Shown here: positions 21,238-28,688 of the stretch, piece after piece
How the letters are laid out: each line of letters opens with the position of its first letter
How positions within the stretch are numbered: position 1 is the stretch's first letter
Origin: a bacterium TMED144
GTDB taxonomy: Bacteria > Fidelibacterota > Marinisomatia > Marinisomatales > TCS55
Direction of reading: 5' to 3'
Assembly: GCA_002170005.2 (NCBI GenBank)
Contig: NHGT02000026.1
Coordinates: 41,463-75,884, forward strand
Length of the DNA: 34,422 bases
The notes under the pieces: model-generated
Seen by the model: the letters and a program-made list of their open reading frames with translations, nothing else
The model's database searches: none
What the model was told of the DNA's origin: nothing
Made by a program: the position numbers and the translations under genes

Positions 21238-22467
21238 ATGGCAAAAAAAATAAGAATGTATTTCTCGTTCTCTAGAGCGACGTACATATTCTTTGCGTCT
21301 GCATTGTTTGCGCAAGAACCACAAACCATAAGCGGTACTTTAACAGATACCAATAACGAGCCAGTAGTTCAAAGCACAATTCTACTTTTGAAGCCTGATG
21401 GCACTGAGCACAAACGAACCGAAACCTCTAAAAAAAGACTTGGCAGAGGGGGTGGTAAATTTGAATTTAAAGATGTTGAGCCAGGCAATTATACTTTACA
21501 ATCTGATGGTGGTGAATTAGGCAGCCTCAATTTTGAACTGGAAGTAATAGATGCTGAAATTAAACTTGGTGATATCAAACTTTCTTTATCGGATGCCTCA
21601 TCGGAAAACACCAATTCTCAAAATCAAGAAATGCTACCTGAAATGGTTAGTACTAGTGACCCAACTGAATCAAATAATCAAGAAAATAGCGAACAAACCA
21701 ATGGCATCAATGAAAACAATATCACAAATGCTTTCACTCCAGATCCCAACAAAGACTACATATTAAATGAACTAAGCTTTGAGATAAAGAAAATGACAGC
21801 TGAAGTTAAATATTTAAACGAAGAATTAGAGGACCTCAAAGCTCTGAGCAAAATGTGGGTCAATCCATTGGCTATATATTCGAAAGAAATTATCATGAAA
21901 AATGGGTCGACAGTTTTTGGAAAAATTGTGTACCAAGACGAAGAACAGCTAAAGGTAGAATCTCTTGTCGGTTATCTTATTATTAATAGAAGCGATGTTG
22001 TAAGAATTGTTGATAACGTTGTAACTGAAGAACAGGCAGAATATGTCCCGGAGCAAGTTAGAGATAGCTATACTCCACCTCCTATGCCAAAACTTGCTCA
22101 ACCACAGTACACCTCTGCAGAAAGAAGCAACGATAAAAAATACTCTGCAAATTGTGTTCTTTTAGGAAATATAACAGAAAAAAAAGATGCACAAGGAAAC
22201 ATAGTTTTCAATGGTGAGATAAAAAATATTGGAGGAAGAAGATCGGACTTTGTTAAAGTAGATTTTGTTTTTAGAAAAAATTGGAGTGGAGAAACAAAGA
22301 CGCTGACAACATTTGTTAGAGGAGGTTATCATACTTTTGATTCAGGCATAACAACTGATGCTACATTATTACCTGGCGCTACTGGTGCATTCGAATTGTA
22401 TGTGCCCAATGATTTTGGATCATTCATTGGTTACTCATATGTAATTGATTGGGAAGAATATGAATAA
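21238..22467 (+). CDS. Exported regulatory-like/FxLYD-type protein, first gene of motor operon
   Basis: 409 residues, with a GAGG Shine-Dalgarno at 21225-21228. A signal peptide ends near F-A-Q-E (about residue 26). A carboxypeptidase-regulatory-like beta-sandwich follows at about 29-118 (I-S-G-T-L-T-D, then F-E-F-K-D-V-E-P-G-N-Y-T-L). A low-complexity Asn/Gln/Ser/Glu linker covers 119-168, a coiled coil about 172-206, a small SH3-like beta-barrel about 217-258 (N-G-S-T-V-F-G-K-I-V), a Pro-rich linker 270-292, and a C-terminal sandwich 300-409 with I-K-N-I-G-G and L-P-G-A-T-G-A-F, resembling FxLYD domains. This reads as a multi-domain periplasmic scaffold. It overlaps the next gene by 8 bp. 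No known flagellar protein has this architecture. Confidence 0.7.
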   Translation: MAKKIRMYFSFSRATYIFFASALFAQEPQTISGTLTDTNNEPVVQSTILLLKPDGTEHKRTETSKKRLGRGGGKFEFKDVEPGNYTLQSDGGELGSLNFELEVIDAEIKLGDIKLSLSDASSENTNSQNQEMLPEMVSTSDPTESNNQENSEQTNGINENNITNAFTPDPNKDYILNELSFEIKKMTAEVKYLNEELEDLKALSKMWVNPLAIYSKEIIMKNGSTVFGKIVYQDEEQLKVESLVGYLIINRSDVVRIVDNVVTEEQAEYVPEQVRDSYTPPPMPKLAQPQYTSAERSNDKKYSANCVLLGNITEKKDAQGNIVFNGEIKNIGGRRSDFVKVDFVFRKNWSGETKTLTTFVRGGYHTFDSGITTDATLLPGATGAFELYVPNDFGSFIGYSYVIDWEEYE

Positions 22468-23302
22468 AAAATTAATTAAGTTTTTTTCACACATTTCATT
22501 TATCGCGGCGGTTGCAAACAGCAGTAGTTATGCACAGGAAACTCCGCTCTCTGAAATCTTTTTTCTAGATTTAGGTATTGTAATTGAGCCTTCCAAAGGA
22601 GATGAATCGTATACTAGAAAAATAGACAAACCCTCTGAGGAGGTAAGCTTTAAAATAAAGAAAGTTGAAAGCGGAAGTGTAATGATGGCCTCATCTAAGG
22701 AATTATTATCAACTTTAGATAGAGTCAATGAGAGATTAAATAATTTAGAAAAATCTTTTCAAACTGAAATGCGGGCTCTCCATGACAAAAATGCTGAACT
22801 TGCAACTGCTTTAGATAATATTAATAATTTTAACTTTTACGAGGATGAACCAGGCCTTGTAGAAAAAAATATTTTACTACCTAACAAACAAAAAAACACT
22901 AATAAAATAGTTGAGAAAGTTAAAATGCCAATTTTCAATAAAGCAGTTTATATGACTGGAGTCTTTGCTTATCAAAGAGAGGACTATGAGGATGCACTTG
23001 AATATTTTTCAAGATTGAACACTTCAATTGCTAGCAACGAAGACAAAGAAAATATTTTTTACTGGATGGCAGACTCTTATCAGCGATTAGGTCAATATGA
23101 TGATGCACTTAACCTCCTAGAGAAAATCATGGAATTTGGCGATTTAAGAATCGATGATGCTCTTATTAAAAAAGGATTGCTTCATAGAAAATTAGGCGAT
23201 GAAGATTTAGCGCTAGCAGCATTCAATGACGTAGTTTTGGGACATCCTAACAGTGAATATTTACGACTTGCTCAAATGGAATTAAAAAAAATAGATAAGT
23301 AA
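22460..23302 (+). CDS. CpoB/YbgF-like coiled-coil and TPR periplasmic protein
   Basis: 280 residues from the ATG at 22460, chosen because it starts the signal peptide M-N-K-K-L-I-K-F-F and overlaps the previous stop (ATGAATAA); an ATG at 22445 is possible. Cleavage is probably after S-Y-A-Q (about residue 26). A coiled coil covers about 80-122 (L-D-R-V-N-E-R-L-N-N-L-E), and the C-terminal 120 residues carry three TPRs, e.g. G-V-F-A-Y-Q-R-E-D-Y-E-D-A-L-E-Y-F and D-S-Y-Q-R-L-G-Q-Y-D-D-A-L. This order, coiled coil then TPR, is that of CpoB/YbgF in the Tol-Pal system, where it links to peptidoglycan synthesis and outer-membrane constriction. Here it accompanies MotA/MotB, so it may play an analogous envelope-linking role. 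Confidence 0.75.
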   Translation: MNKKLIKFFSHISFIAAVANSSSYAQETPLSEIFFLDLGIVIEPSKGDESYTRKIDKPSEEVSFKIKKVESGSVMMASSKELLSTLDRVNERLNNLEKSFQTEMRALHDKNAELATALDNINNFNFYEDEPGLVEKNILLPNKQKNTNKIVEKVKMPIFNKAVYMTGVFAYQREDYEDALEYFSRLNTSIASNEDKENIFYWMADSYQRLGQYDDALNLLEKIMEFGDLRIDDALIKKGLLHRKLGDEDLALAAFNDVVLGHPNSEYLRLAQMELKKIDK

Positions 23303-23303
23303 T

Positions 23304-24647
23304 ATGCTAAAGCTCATCAGGTATATAATTGCTATTACTATTATCATAAATAGTTCTTATAGTGCAACCAGGATTGCTTATTTAAGACCTGGTCCAATGA
23401 TGAAAATTCCTTTTTCTATGATTGGTACATCCCCTTATCTTTTTACAGCAGGTTTTGGGACAGAATTCCATAACTTGGCACCTATTAATACAGCAAAAGG
23501 ATTTTATTATAATATGCAAGCTGGGGGCTGGCTTTTAGGTTTTTCAACTGGCTCTGCTGGAGATACGACTAATATAGCAAATTTAGACGTTAGCACGTAT
23601 AGGGCCCCTGTAGAGTTTGGCTTTCATCTTCAGAGGCAATTATACTCAAAAGATAACATATCATTTTCGCTAGGGTTACAAGATATTGTATTTGAAAACA
23701 AGACTAGCGGATTAAACTTGGACCCCAATGAATTATCATTTTTCGGGGTTATAAGTAGCGAACAAATGATACGCGACTTCAAAGTTAATACATTTCTTGG
23801 CTTTGGAACTGGGGGATTTGGAGCTATCGATACAATTGAAGTCGATTCTCTAAAAACTTCGGGCACCTCTGCAGGTGTTTTTATGGGATTAATTTTCAAT
23901 ACTCCTTATCTTGATAAATGGGGAGGAATAGATATTGTGGGTGAATTCGATGGTAATGGCATCAATGTGGGACTCCGCATCCCCCTTACCTCGGATTATC
24001 GCCTGAACCTAGGATTCACCCACATAGAAAAATTACCAAATTGGAAAGATAGATACTGGGAAGGACACGCGGCGTTTACATTGGGTTTTGAGATTTCAGC
24101 TGCGCGAAGCTCTGGGGTAAAAATTCCAGGAGGAGGGCCCTCTCCAAATCTTTTACCTAACGATAAAATTTCTCAATCTAATGTTGATACAACACTAATG
24201 ATAGCTGATTACGCGGTAAATACACTAAGAGATTCAATGGGAATGATGAATAATGAAATGCGCAACTTAATGATTAGACTTGCCGCAATGGAACAACACT
24301 CAAAATTTTTAGAGGATTCTTTAAAAGCTGTTAAATTAAACAATAATGTAAGTGAACAAAAAATGAATGATGCAATGCGTCATTTATCTAGATCATTAAG
24401 GTATTTTTACGCTGGAAATTACAGATCATCGTTGCAAGAAGTAGAATCTGCCTTAGAATTAAACCCTAATCTTGCACTAGCATATGCAAGAAGAGGGTCC
24501 ATATATTATAAATTGGGAGATGTTCAAAGAGCGACTATCAATTGGAATCTTGCTCTAAGAATGGACCCTGAATACGATGACGTGAGAAATGTTTTAAAAG
24601 CCTTGCATGAAAATAGGCTTAAATCCACAACAATGATTGAGGAATAA
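23304..24647 (+). CDS. Predicted outer-membrane beta-barrel protein with C-terminal coiled coil and TPR
   Basis: 447 residues with a signal peptide ending near S-Y-S-A (about residue 21). Residues about 22-275 alternate short amphipathic strands rich in Gly and aromatic residues (F-T-A-G-F-G-T-E-F, G-G-W-L-L-G-F-S-T, F-L-G-F-G-T-G-G-F), consistent with an 8-12-strand outer-membrane barrel. A coiled coil lies at about 300-350, and the last 90 residues form two or more TPRs (Y-F-Y-A-G-N-Y-R-S-S-L, then A-L-A-Y-A-R-R-G-S-I-Y-Y-K-L-G-D). The stop is 2 bases before motA. A barrel with a periplasmic coiled-coil/TPR arm could connect the outer membrane to the inner-membrane motor; this is inference. 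No named family recognised. Confidence 0.65.
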   Translation: MLKLIRYIIAITIIINSSYSATRIAYLRPGPMMKIPFSMIGTSPYLFTAGFGTEFHNLAPINTAKGFYYNMQAGGWLLGFSTGSAGDTTNIANLDVSTYRAPVEFGFHLQRQLYSKDNISFSLGLQDIVFENKTSGLNLDPNELSFFGVISSEQMIRDFKVNTFLGFGTGGFGAIDTIEVDSLKTSGTSAGVFMGLIFNTPYLDKWGGIDIVGEFDGNGINVGLRIPLTSDYRLNLGFTHIEKLPNWKDRYWEGHAAFTLGFEISAARSSGVKIPGGGPSPNLLPNDKISQSNVDTTLMIADYAVNTLRDSMGMMNNEMRNLMIRLAAMEQHSKFLEDSLKAVKLNNNVSEQKMNDAMRHLSRSLRYFYAGNYRSSLQEVESALELNPNLALAYARRGSIYYKLGDVQRATINWNLALRMDPEYDDVRNVLKALHENRLKSTTMIEE

Positions 24648-24649
24648 AT

Positions 24650-25426
24650 ATGGATTTTGCTACCCTTATTGGAATTTTACTTGGATTAGGTGCGATCTTA
24701 GGAAGTATATTTTTAATGACACCAGACATTGGTATGTTTGGATCTCTATCAAGCTTTGGTATTGTTTTTGGAGGCATGATAGCATCGGTGTCAGTTGCTT
24801 TCCCTTTAAAAGATGTTTTGCAACTTGGTGCAGCTATGGGAGCCGTTTTCAAGGGTGGTGGTGATGCCCTTGGTGGATATGTTGAAGAAGCAGTTGAAGC
24901 AGCTGAGGTAGGTAGAAAGGGGACTGCTGATTTAGAAAAACATATTGACAGTGTTAAAAGTTATTTTTTTAAAGATGGACTCCAAATGGTAATTGACGGT
25001 TATTCATTAGATGAATTATCAGAAATTTTAAATACTAGAATTGATTATAGAGAACTTCGTGAAAATACACAGGCTGGTTTATTTAAATCGATGGGTGTTA
25101 TGTCACCAGCATGGGGCATGGTTGGAACCCTGATTGGTCTGGTAGTTATGCTATCGGGATTTGGCGGTGAAGGTGGTGGAACAGAAACGCTTGGTGCAGG
25201 TATGTCAGCTGCGCTTATTACAACATTTTATGGTGCTGTATTTGCAAATTTATTTTTTCTACCTATGGCTGATAAAATCAAAACAAGAATTACTTTTTCA
25301 AGCACATTACAAAATTTACAATTAGAGGCCGCTAGATTAATCCACCAGAAAAAACACCCGATAATTGTTAGGGAAAAACTAAATTCATTTATTCCTCCTA
25401 AAGAGTGGAAAAAAGAAGAAGGTTAA
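24650..25426 (+). CDS. motA: MotA-like stator proton/sodium channel subunit
   Basis: 258 residues, the full MotA/PomA length with four transmembrane helices (about 3-22, 31-50, 153-170 and 184-206). The large cytoplasmic loop carries G-R-K-G-T-A-D-L-E (Arg89, Glu96), matching the Arg90/Glu98 charges that push on FliG in E. coli. The helix-3 proline is in S-P-A-W-G-M-V-G-T (Pro153) and the helix-4 proline in F-F-L-P-M (Pro205). With MotB it forms the 5:2 ion channel that turns the rotor. Presence of the loop charges and a FliG gene in the same operon separates it from TolQ/ExbB and from the ZorA defence protein. The ion (H+ or Na+) is not decided by the sequence. Confidence 0.93.
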   Translation: MDFATLIGILLGLGAILGSIFLMTPDIGMFGSLSSFGIVFGGMIASVSVAFPLKDVLQLGAAMGAVFKGGGDALGGYVEEAVEAAEVGRKGTADLEKHIDSVKSYFFKDGLQMVIDGYSLDELSEILNTRIDYRELRENTQAGLFKSMGVMSPAWGMVGTLIGLVVMLSGFGGEGGGTETLGAGMSAALITTFYGAVFANLFFLPMADKIKTRITFSSTLQNLQLEAARLIHQKKHPIIVREKLNSFIPPKEWKKEEG

Positions 25427-25429
25427 TAA

Positions 25430-26218
25430 GTGGCTGCTACCCCCCAAGAAATTAAAAAATTTGAAGCCAAAGGAAGAGAGCAAGTTGACGAGGGCCTTCC
25501 TGGCTGGTTTGGAACCTTTGCTGACATGATGACGCTTCTATTTGCTTTTTTCGTTTTACTGGCTGCTATTTCTACCATTGACCCAGTAAAACTTCAGAAC
25601 ATGGCTGACGGAATGGGGAAATCTGTTGGCAAAAAGGAAGAGCTTGATAATCAAGCAATGTCATTAGGTGATATTCATAAAGCTGCAACTAAAATGGTTG
25701 AAGAGATGGCAAAGGATTCAGAGAACGGTGAAACGCCTGTTGAGGTCACAACAAGCCCTAAGGGTGTTACTATTGGCATTTCATCAGATATTAGCTTTGA
25801 ATCTGGATCAGCAACAACCAAAGCAGGATTTTTAGAAATTTTAAAAAAAATATTACCAACTATTCAAGAATCATATTTTAAAATAGCTGTTGAAGGCCAT
25901 ACTGATAGTGATCAACTTCCAAAATCATTAAGAAGATTCTATCCAAGCAATTGGGAATTATCTAGTGCAAGAGCTTCCGCAGTTGTTAGGCTCCTTATAG
26001 GTCTTCAAGTCGATCCAACCAGATTAGAAGCAGTAGGTTATGGTGAATTTGTACCTAGGGATAAAAACACTGCAGAGATTATTACCACAGAATTAATACA
26101 AAAGTATAATTCCACACCCCAACAAAAAGCTAGAAATAGAAGAGTGGAGATTACATTTCTTGCGCCTCGCGGTGGACCAGTAGCTAAGTCGATGGATATG
26201 ACTGAAAATGAAGAATAA
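25430..26218 (+). CDS. motB: MotB-like stator subunit with OmpA peptidoglycan-binding domain
   Basis: 262 residues from a GTG start 3 bases after motA. A short cytoplasmic head is followed by one transmembrane helix, W-F-G-T-F-A-D-M-M-T-L-L-F-A-F-F, in which Asp32 is the ion-carrying residue of all MotB proteins. A plug-like amphipathic stretch follows (about 51-68). The C-terminal OmpA/MotB domain (about 112-246) includes I-S-F-E-S-G-S-A, V-E-G-H-T-D-S-D, S-N-W-E-L-S-S-A-R-A and a closing R-N-R-R-V-E-I, the peptidoglycan-binding signature. All parts needed for an anchored, working stator are therefore present. It overlaps no gene; the FliF-like gene starts 25 bases later with its own Shine-Dalgarno. 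Confidence 0.94.
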   Translation: MAATPQEIKKFEAKGREQVDEGLPGWFGTFADMMTLLFAFFVLLAAISTIDPVKLQNMADGMGKSVGKKEELDNQAMSLGDIHKAATKMVEEMAKDSENGETPVEVTTSPKGVTIGISSDISFESGSATTKAGFLEILKKILPTIQESYFKIAVEGHTDSDQLPKSLRRFYPSNWELSSARASAVVRLLIGLQVDPTRLEAVGYGEFVPRDKNTAEIITTELIQKYNSTPQQKARNRRVEITFLAPRGGPVAKSMDMTENEE

Positions 26219-26243
26219 ATTTTATATGAATAAGGGAGTTACC

Positions 26244-27743
26244 ATGAAAAAATGGACTAGAACTGCATTCAAATATACTATACAATTATCAATGACTGGA
26301 TTATTGTTCGGTCAAGCAAGCAGCGGGTATCTAGCTCAAAAATTGATGATAGAAAATAGCTTAAGAACACGAATTTCAGACGCACTAGAAAAAGTCATTG
26401 AAAATAGAAAATATGTTATTGATGTTAGTGTTGATCTCGAACTTAGTAGTGCTGTAGAAAATCAAACTACGTACTCTCCAAATGGTAATTCTTTTGAATC
26501 TTTACAGTCAGTTGATGGTTCGCTGAGCAGAGATGAAATGGCAAACCCAGGTAGCGTTGGATTGCCTATACCGGGATTTGATTTTACAGGGGAAAATCAA
26601 CAGGCAAACACTAGTGCAGCTCAAGAAACTTCAATGGATTCACAACAAAGCGAGAATGTTGTTTCAAGGACTCAAACTGAAATGAGGCCTTCAATGGCAA
26701 GTGTCAGCAATATGGAGATTAGTATCATTTTACAGGAGGGCGCTGCGCCTGAATTAATAGAAAACATTCGCCAGGTTGTTATGGTAGCATCCAGATTTAA
26801 CCGTACGAGAGGTGATGTTTTAAGCATTATGACAGCTAGCTTTAGGGAAAGAAGGGATGAAAAATCTGCAGAGACAGTATTGCTAAAAAATATTGCTGAA
26901 AAATTGGAGTCACTTGAAAGCCAGAGAGAAAGACTTGGTGAAGTAGATTGGAAGCAAGAATTAGATAATTATAAACAAAATGAGGAGGAGAGAAGACAAG
27001 AGGACAGATTGTATTTCCAATCTCAATTAGCTGAATTAGAGAGTTCTGCTCGTGACGAGTCTTACAATCAAGAAAGGCAAGCGATGCTGAGGCAAGACTC
27101 GGTCAGATTGCAAACCTTGAATGAAGAAATTCAAAATCTTAAGTCTTTTTTAGGCGCAGATAATATTTCTGAATCTGAGATGGCTGAAGCCCAAAATACT
27201 GTTCAAGAAAAATTAGTAGAAAAAAACAGTCTTGATGCTCAAATAGAAGAAAAGCTTGCTATGTTAAACCAAGTTCAATCAGAATTAGACACAGCTCCTA
27301 GAGCTGGTATCATGAGCACTAACCCTGGTTTGGTCATCATTTTATCAATACTTGGTGCCTTAGTTCTTATTCTTGGTGTTATATTAATTGTTATACTTAT
27401 GAATAGACCAAAACAACCAAATTTACCGCCTTGGATGATGTACCCGCCAAGACGGCCAAAAAAAAAAGCCAACGCTAGCGGATCACCACAACCAATAATG
27501 ACACAAAATCAACAAGCTCCAACACAGCAGCCATCACCAGCTGAAGATATTCCAGTATTGCAAAGCGAAGTTAACGATATGAAACAAGCCGTTGTATCCA
27601 TGAGCGTTGGGCAACCACAAGCTGCAAACAAAATAGTAAAAGATTGGATTCTCGAGGAGGCCCCTCCTGAACCAGAACCTGCTCCAGTCCCAGAGCCTGA
27701 TGAAGATGAAGGAAAAGGAAAAAAGAAAAGAAAGAAAAAATAA
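26244..27743 (+). CDS. Reduced FliF-like MS-ring protein (RBM3, coiled coil, TM, FliG-binding tail)
   Basis: 499 residues from the ATG at 26244, which has GGGAG 5-10 bases before it; ATGs at 26208 and 26226 are less likely. Residues 9-24 form a signal peptide or membrane anchor. Residues about 33-200 match the third ring-building domain of FliF: V-S-V-D-L-E-L, T-T-Y-S-P-N-G, N-P-G-S-V-G-L-P-I-P-G, then V-S-N-M-E-I-S-I-I-L and R-T-R-G-D-V-L, with the usual disordered Gln/Ser loop between. RBM1 and RBM2 of normal FliF are missing. A coiled coil (205-350) is inserted before the C-terminal helix (360-386). The tail has Q-P-Q-A-A-N-K-I-V-K-D-W-I-L (457-470), resembling the FliF segment that docks on FliG, followed by a Pro/Glu then Lys-rich end. 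Confidence 0.85.
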   Translation: MKKWTRTAFKYTIQLSMTGLLFGQASSGYLAQKLMIENSLRTRISDALEKVIENRKYVIDVSVDLELSSAVENQTTYSPNGNSFESLQSVDGSLSRDEMANPGSVGLPIPGFDFTGENQQANTSAAQETSMDSQQSENVVSRTQTEMRPSMASVSNMEISIILQEGAAPELIENIRQVVMVASRFNRTRGDVLSIMTASFRERRDEKSAETVLLKNIAEKLESLESQRERLGEVDWKQELDNYKQNEEERRQEDRLYFQSQLAELESSARDESYNQERQAMLRQDSVRLQTLNEEIQNLKSFLGADNISESEMAEAQNTVQEKLVEKNSLDAQIEEKLAMLNQVQSELDTAPRAGIMSTNPGLVIILSILGALVLILGVILIVILMNRPKQPNLPPWMMYPPRRPKKKANASGSPQPIMTQNQQAPTQQPSPAEDIPVLQSEVNDMKQAVVSMSVGQPQAANKIVKDWILEEAPPEPEPAPVPEPDEDEGKGKKKRKKK

Positions 27744-27752
27744 GAGGTAGAT

Positions 27753-28688
27753 ATGATCACAGAATACAGCAGATTGTCTGGCCTTCAAAAAGTAGCTATA
27801 CTTTTTTCAATACTTGGAGAAAGTTTAGCACTAAATCTTGTAAATGATCTTGATCAAACTGAAATAAGAAAAATCAGAGCCGCTATGCGAGGAGTAGGAA
27901 ATGTTTCTTTCGCTGTAAAGAAACAAGTTATGGAGGAATTTTATTTCTCCTTTGTAAGTGAAAAATTTCAACCACAAGAAGAAGATAATGAACCAAAAAA
28001 ACCATTTTTATTCTTGAGTGACATTACCGATGAACAGTTAGTAGCTATGCTTTCCAATGAGGATTCTAAAGTCATAGCGATAACCTTAGCACAAGTTGAT
28101 AGCAAAAAAAGGATGATGGTGCTAGACAGAATTGGTGAAGACGAAAAAAATGAAGTTTTATTAAGTATTGGAAACCTTGATGGCGTACCACTTGAAGCTG
28201 TTGTTCAAATTGCCCATCGATTACAAAAGAAGGCCAAAGGACTGCCCAAAACCGTTGCTTTTTCAAGAGGCGGTGGAAAAGATTTGGCTGATTTACTAGG
28301 AGAAATGAATGCTCAAGAAGAAGAGCTATTTATGGCTAATCTTGAGCAAAATGACCCTGATTTAGCTAGTGAAGTTAAAAAATACAGGATAACCTTTGAA
28401 TCAATTTTTGAAATCTTTCCTGACAATCTCCTTCGAGATTTAATGAATGCTGTAGATCTTGATGCTGTAGCGATGGCTTTAAAAGGCATGGATCAGGTAA
28501 TCACAGATAAAGTTCTCGGTGTTCTTCCAAAGAAAAAACAAGCTATGTTTGAGCCCGTAGAGGGAGCTGTACCAAAGAGAGATGTTGATACGGCTCGTAA
28601 GAATGTAGTTTCTGCTGCCAAACAAATGGAAAAAGATGGTGCGTTTAAGCTTGAAGATCTTTTGGGTGGTGGCGACACAGTTGAATAA
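27753..28688 (+). CDS. fliG: FliG-like rotor protein lacking the FliM-binding EHPQ motif
   Basis: 311 residues with a GAGG site before the ATG. All three FliG domains are visible. The N domain (L-Q-K-V-A-I-L-F-S-I-L-G-E) binds FliF. The middle domain spans about 92-162. The C domain (about 198-300) has R-I-T-F-E-S-I-F-E, R-D-L-M-N-A-V-D, M-A-L-K-G-M and A-V-P-K-R-D-V-D, where MotA touches FliG in flagella. Normal FliG is about 330-345 residues. The middle-domain E-H-P-Q, which contacts FliM, reads E-D-S-K here (103-106). In the torque helix, the conserved Arg falls on a Lys of the K-K-K run at 260-262 and the Asp pair is largely lost. So MotA contact is plausible while the C-ring switch contact is not. 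A terminator follows. Confidence 0.93.
   Translation: MITEYSRLSGLQKVAILFSILGESLALNLVNDLDQTEIRKIRAAMRGVGNVSFAVKKQVMEEFYFSFVSEKFQPQEEDNEPKKPFLFLSDITDEQLVAMLSNEDSKVIAITLAQVDSKKRMMVLDRIGEDEKNEVLLSIGNLDGVPLEAVVQIAHRLQKKAKGLPKTVAFSRGGGKDLADLLGEMNAQEEELFMANLEQNDPDLASEVKKYRITFESIFEIFPDNLLRDLMNAVDLDAVAMALKGMDQVITDKVLGVLPKKKQAMFEPVEGAVPKRDVDTARKNVVSAAKQMEKDGAFKLEDLLGGGDTVE

Follow-up and report, generated by a model that had tools for sequence, protein, structure and literature searches.

The window analysed here, a stretch of 34,422 nucleotides from contig NHGT02000026.1 of the bacterium TMED144 (Fidelibacterota; assembly GCA_002170005.2), contains an operon of seven genes (positions 21238-28688) in a recurrent order, encoding a lipoprotein with a CarboxypepD_reg-like domain, a YbgF-like TPR protein, a predicted barrel-TPR protein, MotA, MotB, a short FliF (nFliF), and a FliG-like protein that we name nFliG, for the window-type, non-flagellar FliG paralogue (Table 1). 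No export, rod, hook, filament, fliM, or fliN gene was found in the operon of the window. Gene content was counted across 50 loci whose sequence reaches at least 7.9 kb upstream of nFliG, where fliF, motB, and motA are invariably present (50/50), the barrel-TPR and lipoprotein genes occur in 49 loci each, and the TPR protein gene in 43; the flank downstream of nFliG is variable. A lipoprotein-type signal on the first protein is seen in deep-branching relatives. The structural model of the barrel-TPR protein, which is of modest confidence (mean pLDDT 72), comprises 13 strands, a long helix, and TPR helices, and Foldseek searches with this model matched OmpG/FapF-type barrels and TPRs.

Table 1. 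Genes and features of the nFliG operon, in positions of the window.
Feature	Position	Strand	Basis
Exported protein, CarboxypepD_reg-like with conserved C-terminal domain	21238..22467	+	Family comparison; 49/50 operons
Periplasmic TPR protein, YbgF/CpoB- or BamD-like	22445..23302	+	TPR families, weak YbgF/BamD matches; 43/50 operons
Predicted outer-membrane β-barrel with periplasmic coiled coil and C-terminal TPR	23304..24647	+	TPR in 32/32 members
MotA-like stator subunit	24650..25426	+	PF01618
MotB-like stator subunit, Asp32 ion site and OmpA peptidoglycan-binding domain	25430..26218	+	PF13677, PF00691
Short FliF (nFliF), 511 aa	26208..27743	+	YscJ_FliF_C (PF08345), 54.2 bits
RBM3/β-collar ring domain of nFliF	26322..26837	+	AlphaFold model and structure matches
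Long helical (coiled-coil) stalk of nFliF, ring domain to membrane helix	26859..27308	+	Predicted helices 218-243, 248-316, 322-367
Inner-membrane helix of nFliF	27324..27401	+	Predicted helix 373-398, hydrophobic
Predicted FliG-binding cytoplasmic tail of nFliF (AVVSMSVGQPQAANKIVKDWILEE)	27549..27656	+	Conservation; predicted helices 448-465, 470-483
nFliG, 311 aa, FliG_N + FliG_M + FliG_C	27753..28688	+	Pfam, TIGR00207, tree
E-D-S-K replacing EHPQ (FliM docking motif)	28059..28070	+	Codons, alignment, 0/80 orthologues with EHPQ
Ser138 replacing Arg160 (R of the EHPQR FliM-binding surface)	28164..28166	+	Residue comparison
Gly-Gly-Gly hinge at the FliG_M/FliG_C junction (FSRGGGK)	28269..28277	+	GG in 78/80 nFliG
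Torque-helix region LPKKKQAMFEPVEGAVPKR, K261 for R281, D288/D289 turn shortened, E267 close by	28524..28580	+	Residue comparison

The nFliG protein matches FliG_N (54.2 bits), FliG_M (46.4 bits), and FliG_C (69.7 bits), in this order and all above their cut-offs, and scores 114.3 bits against TIGR00207, the fliG equivalog model, which is below the cut-off of 226.7 bits for a flagellar equivalog. The EHPQR motif of FliG constitutes the FliM-binding surface, with R160 as its fifth residue (PMC6290876). At the place of EHPQ, nFliG has E103, D104, S105, and K106, encoded by GAG GAT TCT AAA, and the EHPQ of the FliG proteins of T. maritima and A. aeolicus falls exactly on these four residues in an alignment that is gap-free there, which bears out the substitution reported by the sequence-only reading. 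A shifted alignment concealing an intact motif can be ruled out, since a sequence search found neither EHPQ nor HPQ anywhere in the nFliG of the window or in its 80 orthologues. Position-by-position comparison of 80 nFliG with nine flagellar FliGs (E. coli and eight from the same phylum) showed that EHPQ and R160 are both kept in 9/9 flagellar FliGs, whereas neither is present in any of the 80 nFliG, where the residue corresponding to R160 is mostly Glu; E125 is retained in 80/80, and none of the 80 combines H, P, and Q. The FliM docking surface proposed to be missing from this protein is thus indeed lost, its non-EHPQ replacement is fixed in the lineage, and the loss extends to every nFliG examined, including deep families. 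Mean column identity across nFliG is 72%, which is indicative of strong selection.

The operon occurs throughout the Neomarinimicrobiota (Fidelibacterota, SAR406), a mostly uncultured, marine phylum. Relatives of the window's organism encode the window-type FliG (∼310 aa) alone or, in few genomes, together with a canonical FliG (∼340 aa), and EHPQ is found in all flagellar FliG copies of these relatives but never in the window type. All 80 nFliG form one group in the FliG tree, which a long branch separates from the flagellar FliGs, and the chromosomes CP070787.1 and CP070638.1 encode one flagellar FliG and one nFliG each. nFliG is a second, non-flagellar FliG paralogue. A sequence-pattern scan returned named records nearly all from Neomarinimicrobiota, with patterns (FSRGGGK among them) that are specific to this family. 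A contig with nFliG and nFliF (L133) was also found in a metagenome-assembled genome labelled SAR86, and is probably a mis-binned Neomarinimicrobiota contig. More than one FliG in a genome has precedent in the spirochaetes, which have two or four FliG homologues (PMC1586193); these are attributed to flagella, whereas nFliG is encoded in an operon of its own and persists in the absence of flagellar genes.

The relationship between nFliG and flagella was surveyed in 175 genomes of the phylum, each at least 80% complete. The nFliG profile matched 132 of these, and six were dropped owing to a match of flagellar-FliG strength or a fragmentary sequence, leaving 126. FliMN was detected in 34 of the 175 genomes and FlhA above its cut-off in 36. 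Among the 126 nFliG genomes, 28 have FliMN, one more has FlhA, and 97 have neither, where the presence of FliM/FliN was judged by sequence search and a strongly diverged FliM could escape; the lack of association with fliM raised by the sequence-only reading accordingly holds for most of the lineage. One genome assembled as a single contig of 2,788,509 bases (G072) contains the whole operon and neither FliMN nor FlhA. The nFliG operon is independent of FliM and FlhA, although flagellar genes accompany nFliG in 29 of the 126 genomes, where a shared or accessory flagellar role is therefore possible. Genomes of at most 1 Mb from one genus (G050, G060, G089-G100) have no nFliG, and nearly all of them keep SprA.

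The absence of fliM and fliN after nFliG had been read as a sign of a flagellar rotor without a switch complex. Locally the observation is correct, but it does not extend to the genome (1.57 Mb, 32 contigs), in which both genes lie in a flagellar operon on contig C22; a genome wholly without fliM is thereby ruled out. From their translations we take the genes of C22 to be fliM, fliN, fliO, fliP, fliR, flhB, flhA, flhF, motA, motB, and flg, and the translated FliM retains a GGTG motif. Contamination does not account for this contig, as its flagellar locus recurs in the congener G001, with identities mostly of 80-99%. A flagellar motor devoid of its switch complex is hence not what the evidence describes, since the organism has a flagellar operon with fliM and fliN, and the closed genomes carry nFliG and an EHPQ-containing FliG separately. 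It could still be argued that nFliG is the organism's own flagellar FliG with an altered FliM interface, because nFliG is the only FliG in the window's assembly beside FliM and FliN, as it is in G001. However, C22 and the matching contig of G001 both end inside fliK, where fliE-fliJ would come, so the flagellar fliF and fliG of this genus should lie on sequence that neither assembly contains, and in G009 a canonical fliF-fliG pair stands on the fliM contig at the place where C22 breaks off. Complete flagellar loci come with a separate EHPQ FliG besides nFliG, and the 97 nFliG genomes without FliMN or FlhA argue against this explanation as well, which we regard as highly improbable. The flagellar MotA, MotB, and FliL of two species of one genus (L004:8720-11046 and L069:3676-5996) share 62%, 71%, and 45% identity, respectively, and the flagellar genes near them are mostly 80-99% identical.

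The protein encoded directly upstream of nFliG is a shortened FliF. The only FliF family matched in nFliF is PF08345, which was found in 30 of 34 orthologues, while RBM1/RBM2 (YscJ_FliF, PF01514) were found neither in the nFliF of the window nor among the Pfam matches listed for the 34 orthologues; the genomes in which PF01514 is present (4 of 18) all have a canonical flagellar FliG. The AlphaFold model of nFliF is of modest confidence (mean pLDDT 68), and its 15 PDB matches with E ≤ 0.001 are without exception structures of the FliF MS-ring. As modelled, nFliF contains an RBM3/collar fold and lacks RBM1/RBM2, and its ring domain and membrane helix are predicted to be separated by ∼150 helical residues. 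In flagella, RBM1 and RBM2 encircle the export gate. An operon without export, rod, hook, or filament genes, with a FliF devoid of these gate-encircling domains, is at odds with the view of this gene cluster as a flagellar rotor. The cytoplasmic tail (VVSMSVGQP..AT.IVKEWL) is conserved and corresponds to the tail with which flagellar FliFs of the same phylum bind FliG, and on these grounds nFliG is proposed to bind the C-terminal tail of nFliF.

A 518-aa protein of G049 (C18, L068:8098-9654) combines an N-terminal half resembling FliF RBM3 with a membrane helix and FliG_M/FliG_C, and is followed by genes for two TPR proteins that match the barrel-TPR profile; it looks like a natural FliF-like/FliG fusion, with a weak profile match for its FliF-like half (E 0.0006, probability 29%). 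Weak FliG_C matches in G048 and G059 were rejected as further fusions, there being no operon gene at these loci and the proteins reading as MgtE-like from sequence. Rings made by a FliF-FliG fusion protein have been reported from a non-motile host, in a study that judged the FliG ring not to need FliM contacts (PMC6079021).

The residues by which a stator is expected to work are well preserved. The operon MotA scores 151 bits against the NCBIfam MotP model and 147 bits against PomA, versus 11 bits against TolQ, and its R89 and E96 correspond to R90 and E98 of E. coli. R90, E98, P173, and P222 are present in 68/68 MotA sequences of the main set, two deep sequences (G137 and G142) deviating at R90 or E98, and D32 is conserved in 70/70 operon MotB. 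The operon stator retains its ion-path and torque residues. A second MotA-like gene and two MotB-like genes lie ∼7 kb downstream of the operon in G072 (L200:17148-19001). In the stator-facing helix of nFliG, K264 is retained in 80/80 and R281 replaced by Lys in 80/80, and the D288/D289 turn is deleted in the main 80 nFliG, a three-residue shortening of the torque helix that leaves a glutamate nearby. As the helix is shortened in most members, the stator contact would be remodelled and not identical to that of flagella. Deep families (f20, f21, f22, f23, f24, f26, and f27) keep R/K281 and D288/E289 but have already lost EHPQ and R160, and therefore the FliM surface is lost in all nFliG, whereas the stator-facing helix is altered only in some lineages.

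The loss of the docking motif and of RBM1/2, together with the shortened torque helix of most members, could also be taken to mean that the operon is a degenerate flagellar remnant or encodes a motor-less paralogue, for example a scaffold. This we consider quite unlikely, given that no sequence of the main set departs from the ion-path and stator residues (68/68 for MotA, 70/70 for MotB), that the operon has been kept together across the phylum, and that the column identity of nFliG points to strong selection.

We propose instead that nFliG is part of a flagellum-independent, switchless FliF-FliG-MotAB rotary machine that spans the envelope and is encoded by the operon described here, a reading to which we assign a probability of roughly 80%. 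In this machine, MotA5-MotB2 stators anchored to peptidoglycan through MotB would admit ions and exert force on nFliG at its C-terminal domain, while the N-terminal domain of nFliG would hold the C-terminal tail of nFliF. The RBM3/collar ring of nFliF would be raised off the inner membrane by the long helical stalk, and torque may be handed from nFliF to the periplasmic TPR proteins and the outer-membrane barrel-TPR protein. With EHPQ and R160 both lost, no FliM/FliN switch ring would dock, and the nFliG motor probably turns one way, a reasonable inference from these substitutions and in keeping with the single direction that the sequence-only reading suggested as one option. Likewise, because the domains around the type III export gate are lost, nothing would be exported through nFliF. 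Ring assembly, rotation, its single direction, and the mechanical link to the outer membrane are what we infer from the components. A cut-down rotor and stator of this kind probably form a rotary machine with a job other than that of the flagellum, given that the docking site is lost and the operon persists where there is no flagellum.

The resemblance of this machine to the flagellar FliF-FliG-MotA-MotB motor lies in the three-domain FliG, the RBM3/collar and FliG-binding tail of FliF, the conserved R90, E98, P173, and P222 of MotA, and the D32 and OmpA domain of MotB. It differs in that nFliG has no FliM docking surface, nFliF has no RBM1/2, and the operon adds TPR, barrel, and lipoprotein partners and, in the window, has no gene for FliM/FliN or for the export gate, rod, hook, or filament; unlike a flagellar motor, it is found in genomes without FliM and FlhA. 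Tol-Pal, ExbBD-TonB, AglRQS, and Zorya are similar in having a MotAB-related ion-driven unit that energizes a non-flagellar process, though we know of no FliF or FliG in any of these, and the MotA of the window is set apart from Tol-Pal by its TolQ score of 11 bits. Identity with Zorya was ruled out, as ZorB-type matches were obtained for MotB alone and no ZorA match was found at E ≤ 0.01. To our knowledge, FliG and the FliF-FliG rotor have been treated as exclusive to flagella. In a recent survey, MotAB stators of the flagellar type group together and apart from their non-flagellar homologues (PMC12505986). Literature searches for non-flagellar FliGs and for SAR406 motility genes revealed no description of this system or of any non-flagellar FliG, in a body of work that covers few subscription papers and preprints. 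The components belong to known families, and it is their combination and independence from flagella that appear to be new. We lean, with less assurance than for the machine itself, towards the view that this is the first rotary machine outside flagella with a true FliF-FliG rotor ring, being switchless, export-free, connected to both membranes, and phylum-wide, and having a task outside the flagellum, for example in type IX secretion or in remodelling the outer membrane. A rotor ring with a flagellar-type stator but without switch, export apparatus, or filament, spread through a phylum widespread in the ocean, would show torque generation uncoupled from switching and secretion, inform our view of how parts of the flagellum were reused or arose, and offer a natural test of the contribution of FliM.

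The leading guesses for the use of this torque are the powering of type IX secretion and outer-membrane or envelope work. GldL/GldM (PorL/PorM), which drive gliding and the type IX secretion system of the Bacteroidota, form a 5:2-type motor in the inner membrane that is powered by ions and coupled to outer-membrane work. The machine proposed here would resemble GldLM in this role only, since GldLM has no FliF/FliG ring, the stator of the window scores as flagellar MotP/PomA type, and no GldM (PF12081) match was found among the operon proteins of the window. Under one explanation, the machine takes the place of GldL/GldM as the power source of the SprA translocon, perhaps along with movement over surfaces. 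SprA is above its cut-off in 169 of the 175 genomes and GldM was matched in one, though none of the control genomes yielded a GldM match, and sorting-domain proteins of the Por system are numerous in SAR406 genomes (PMC5596340). With SprA nearly universal and GldM nearly absent, the usual motor of type IX secretion may be missing from this lineage, and the operon, which has outer-membrane and periplasmic partners, may explain what powers such secretion, though the machine as power source is a guess. Set against this, whole families without nFliG still have SprA (for instance the genomes of at most 1 Mb G050, G060, and G099), so the motor is not obligatory for SprA, and no T9SS gene was recognized around the operon loci. 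Strict dependence of type IX secretion on the nFliG motor is ruled out, as SprA does not track nFliG, and the looser form of this explanation is possible but rather unlikely. The sole GldM among the 175 genomes (G135:C9:12514-13230, L193) is presumably due to transfer or contamination.

A second explanation, which we hold to be just as tentative, is that of an envelope-maintenance motor with a Tol-Pal-like role that pulls or organizes the outer membrane via the TPR and barrel proteins. It agrees with an operon that holds a YbgF/CpoB-like TPR protein, a peptidoglycan-binding MotB, a barrel-TPR protein, and a lipoprotein, although the YbgF similarity is generic TPR similarity and no TolA-, TolB-, or Pal-like protein was recognized in the operon. 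The cultured Fidelibacter multiformis is described as non-motile (PMC11652737), which would suit such a role if this species has the operon.

Some genomes encode nFliG twice. Both nFliG loci of G105 (L198 and L199) lie in copies of the operon, one of which is cut by a contig end, and this arrangement suggests two versions of the machine in one organism; two nFliG loci in a single genome were seen again in L201 and G116 C25.
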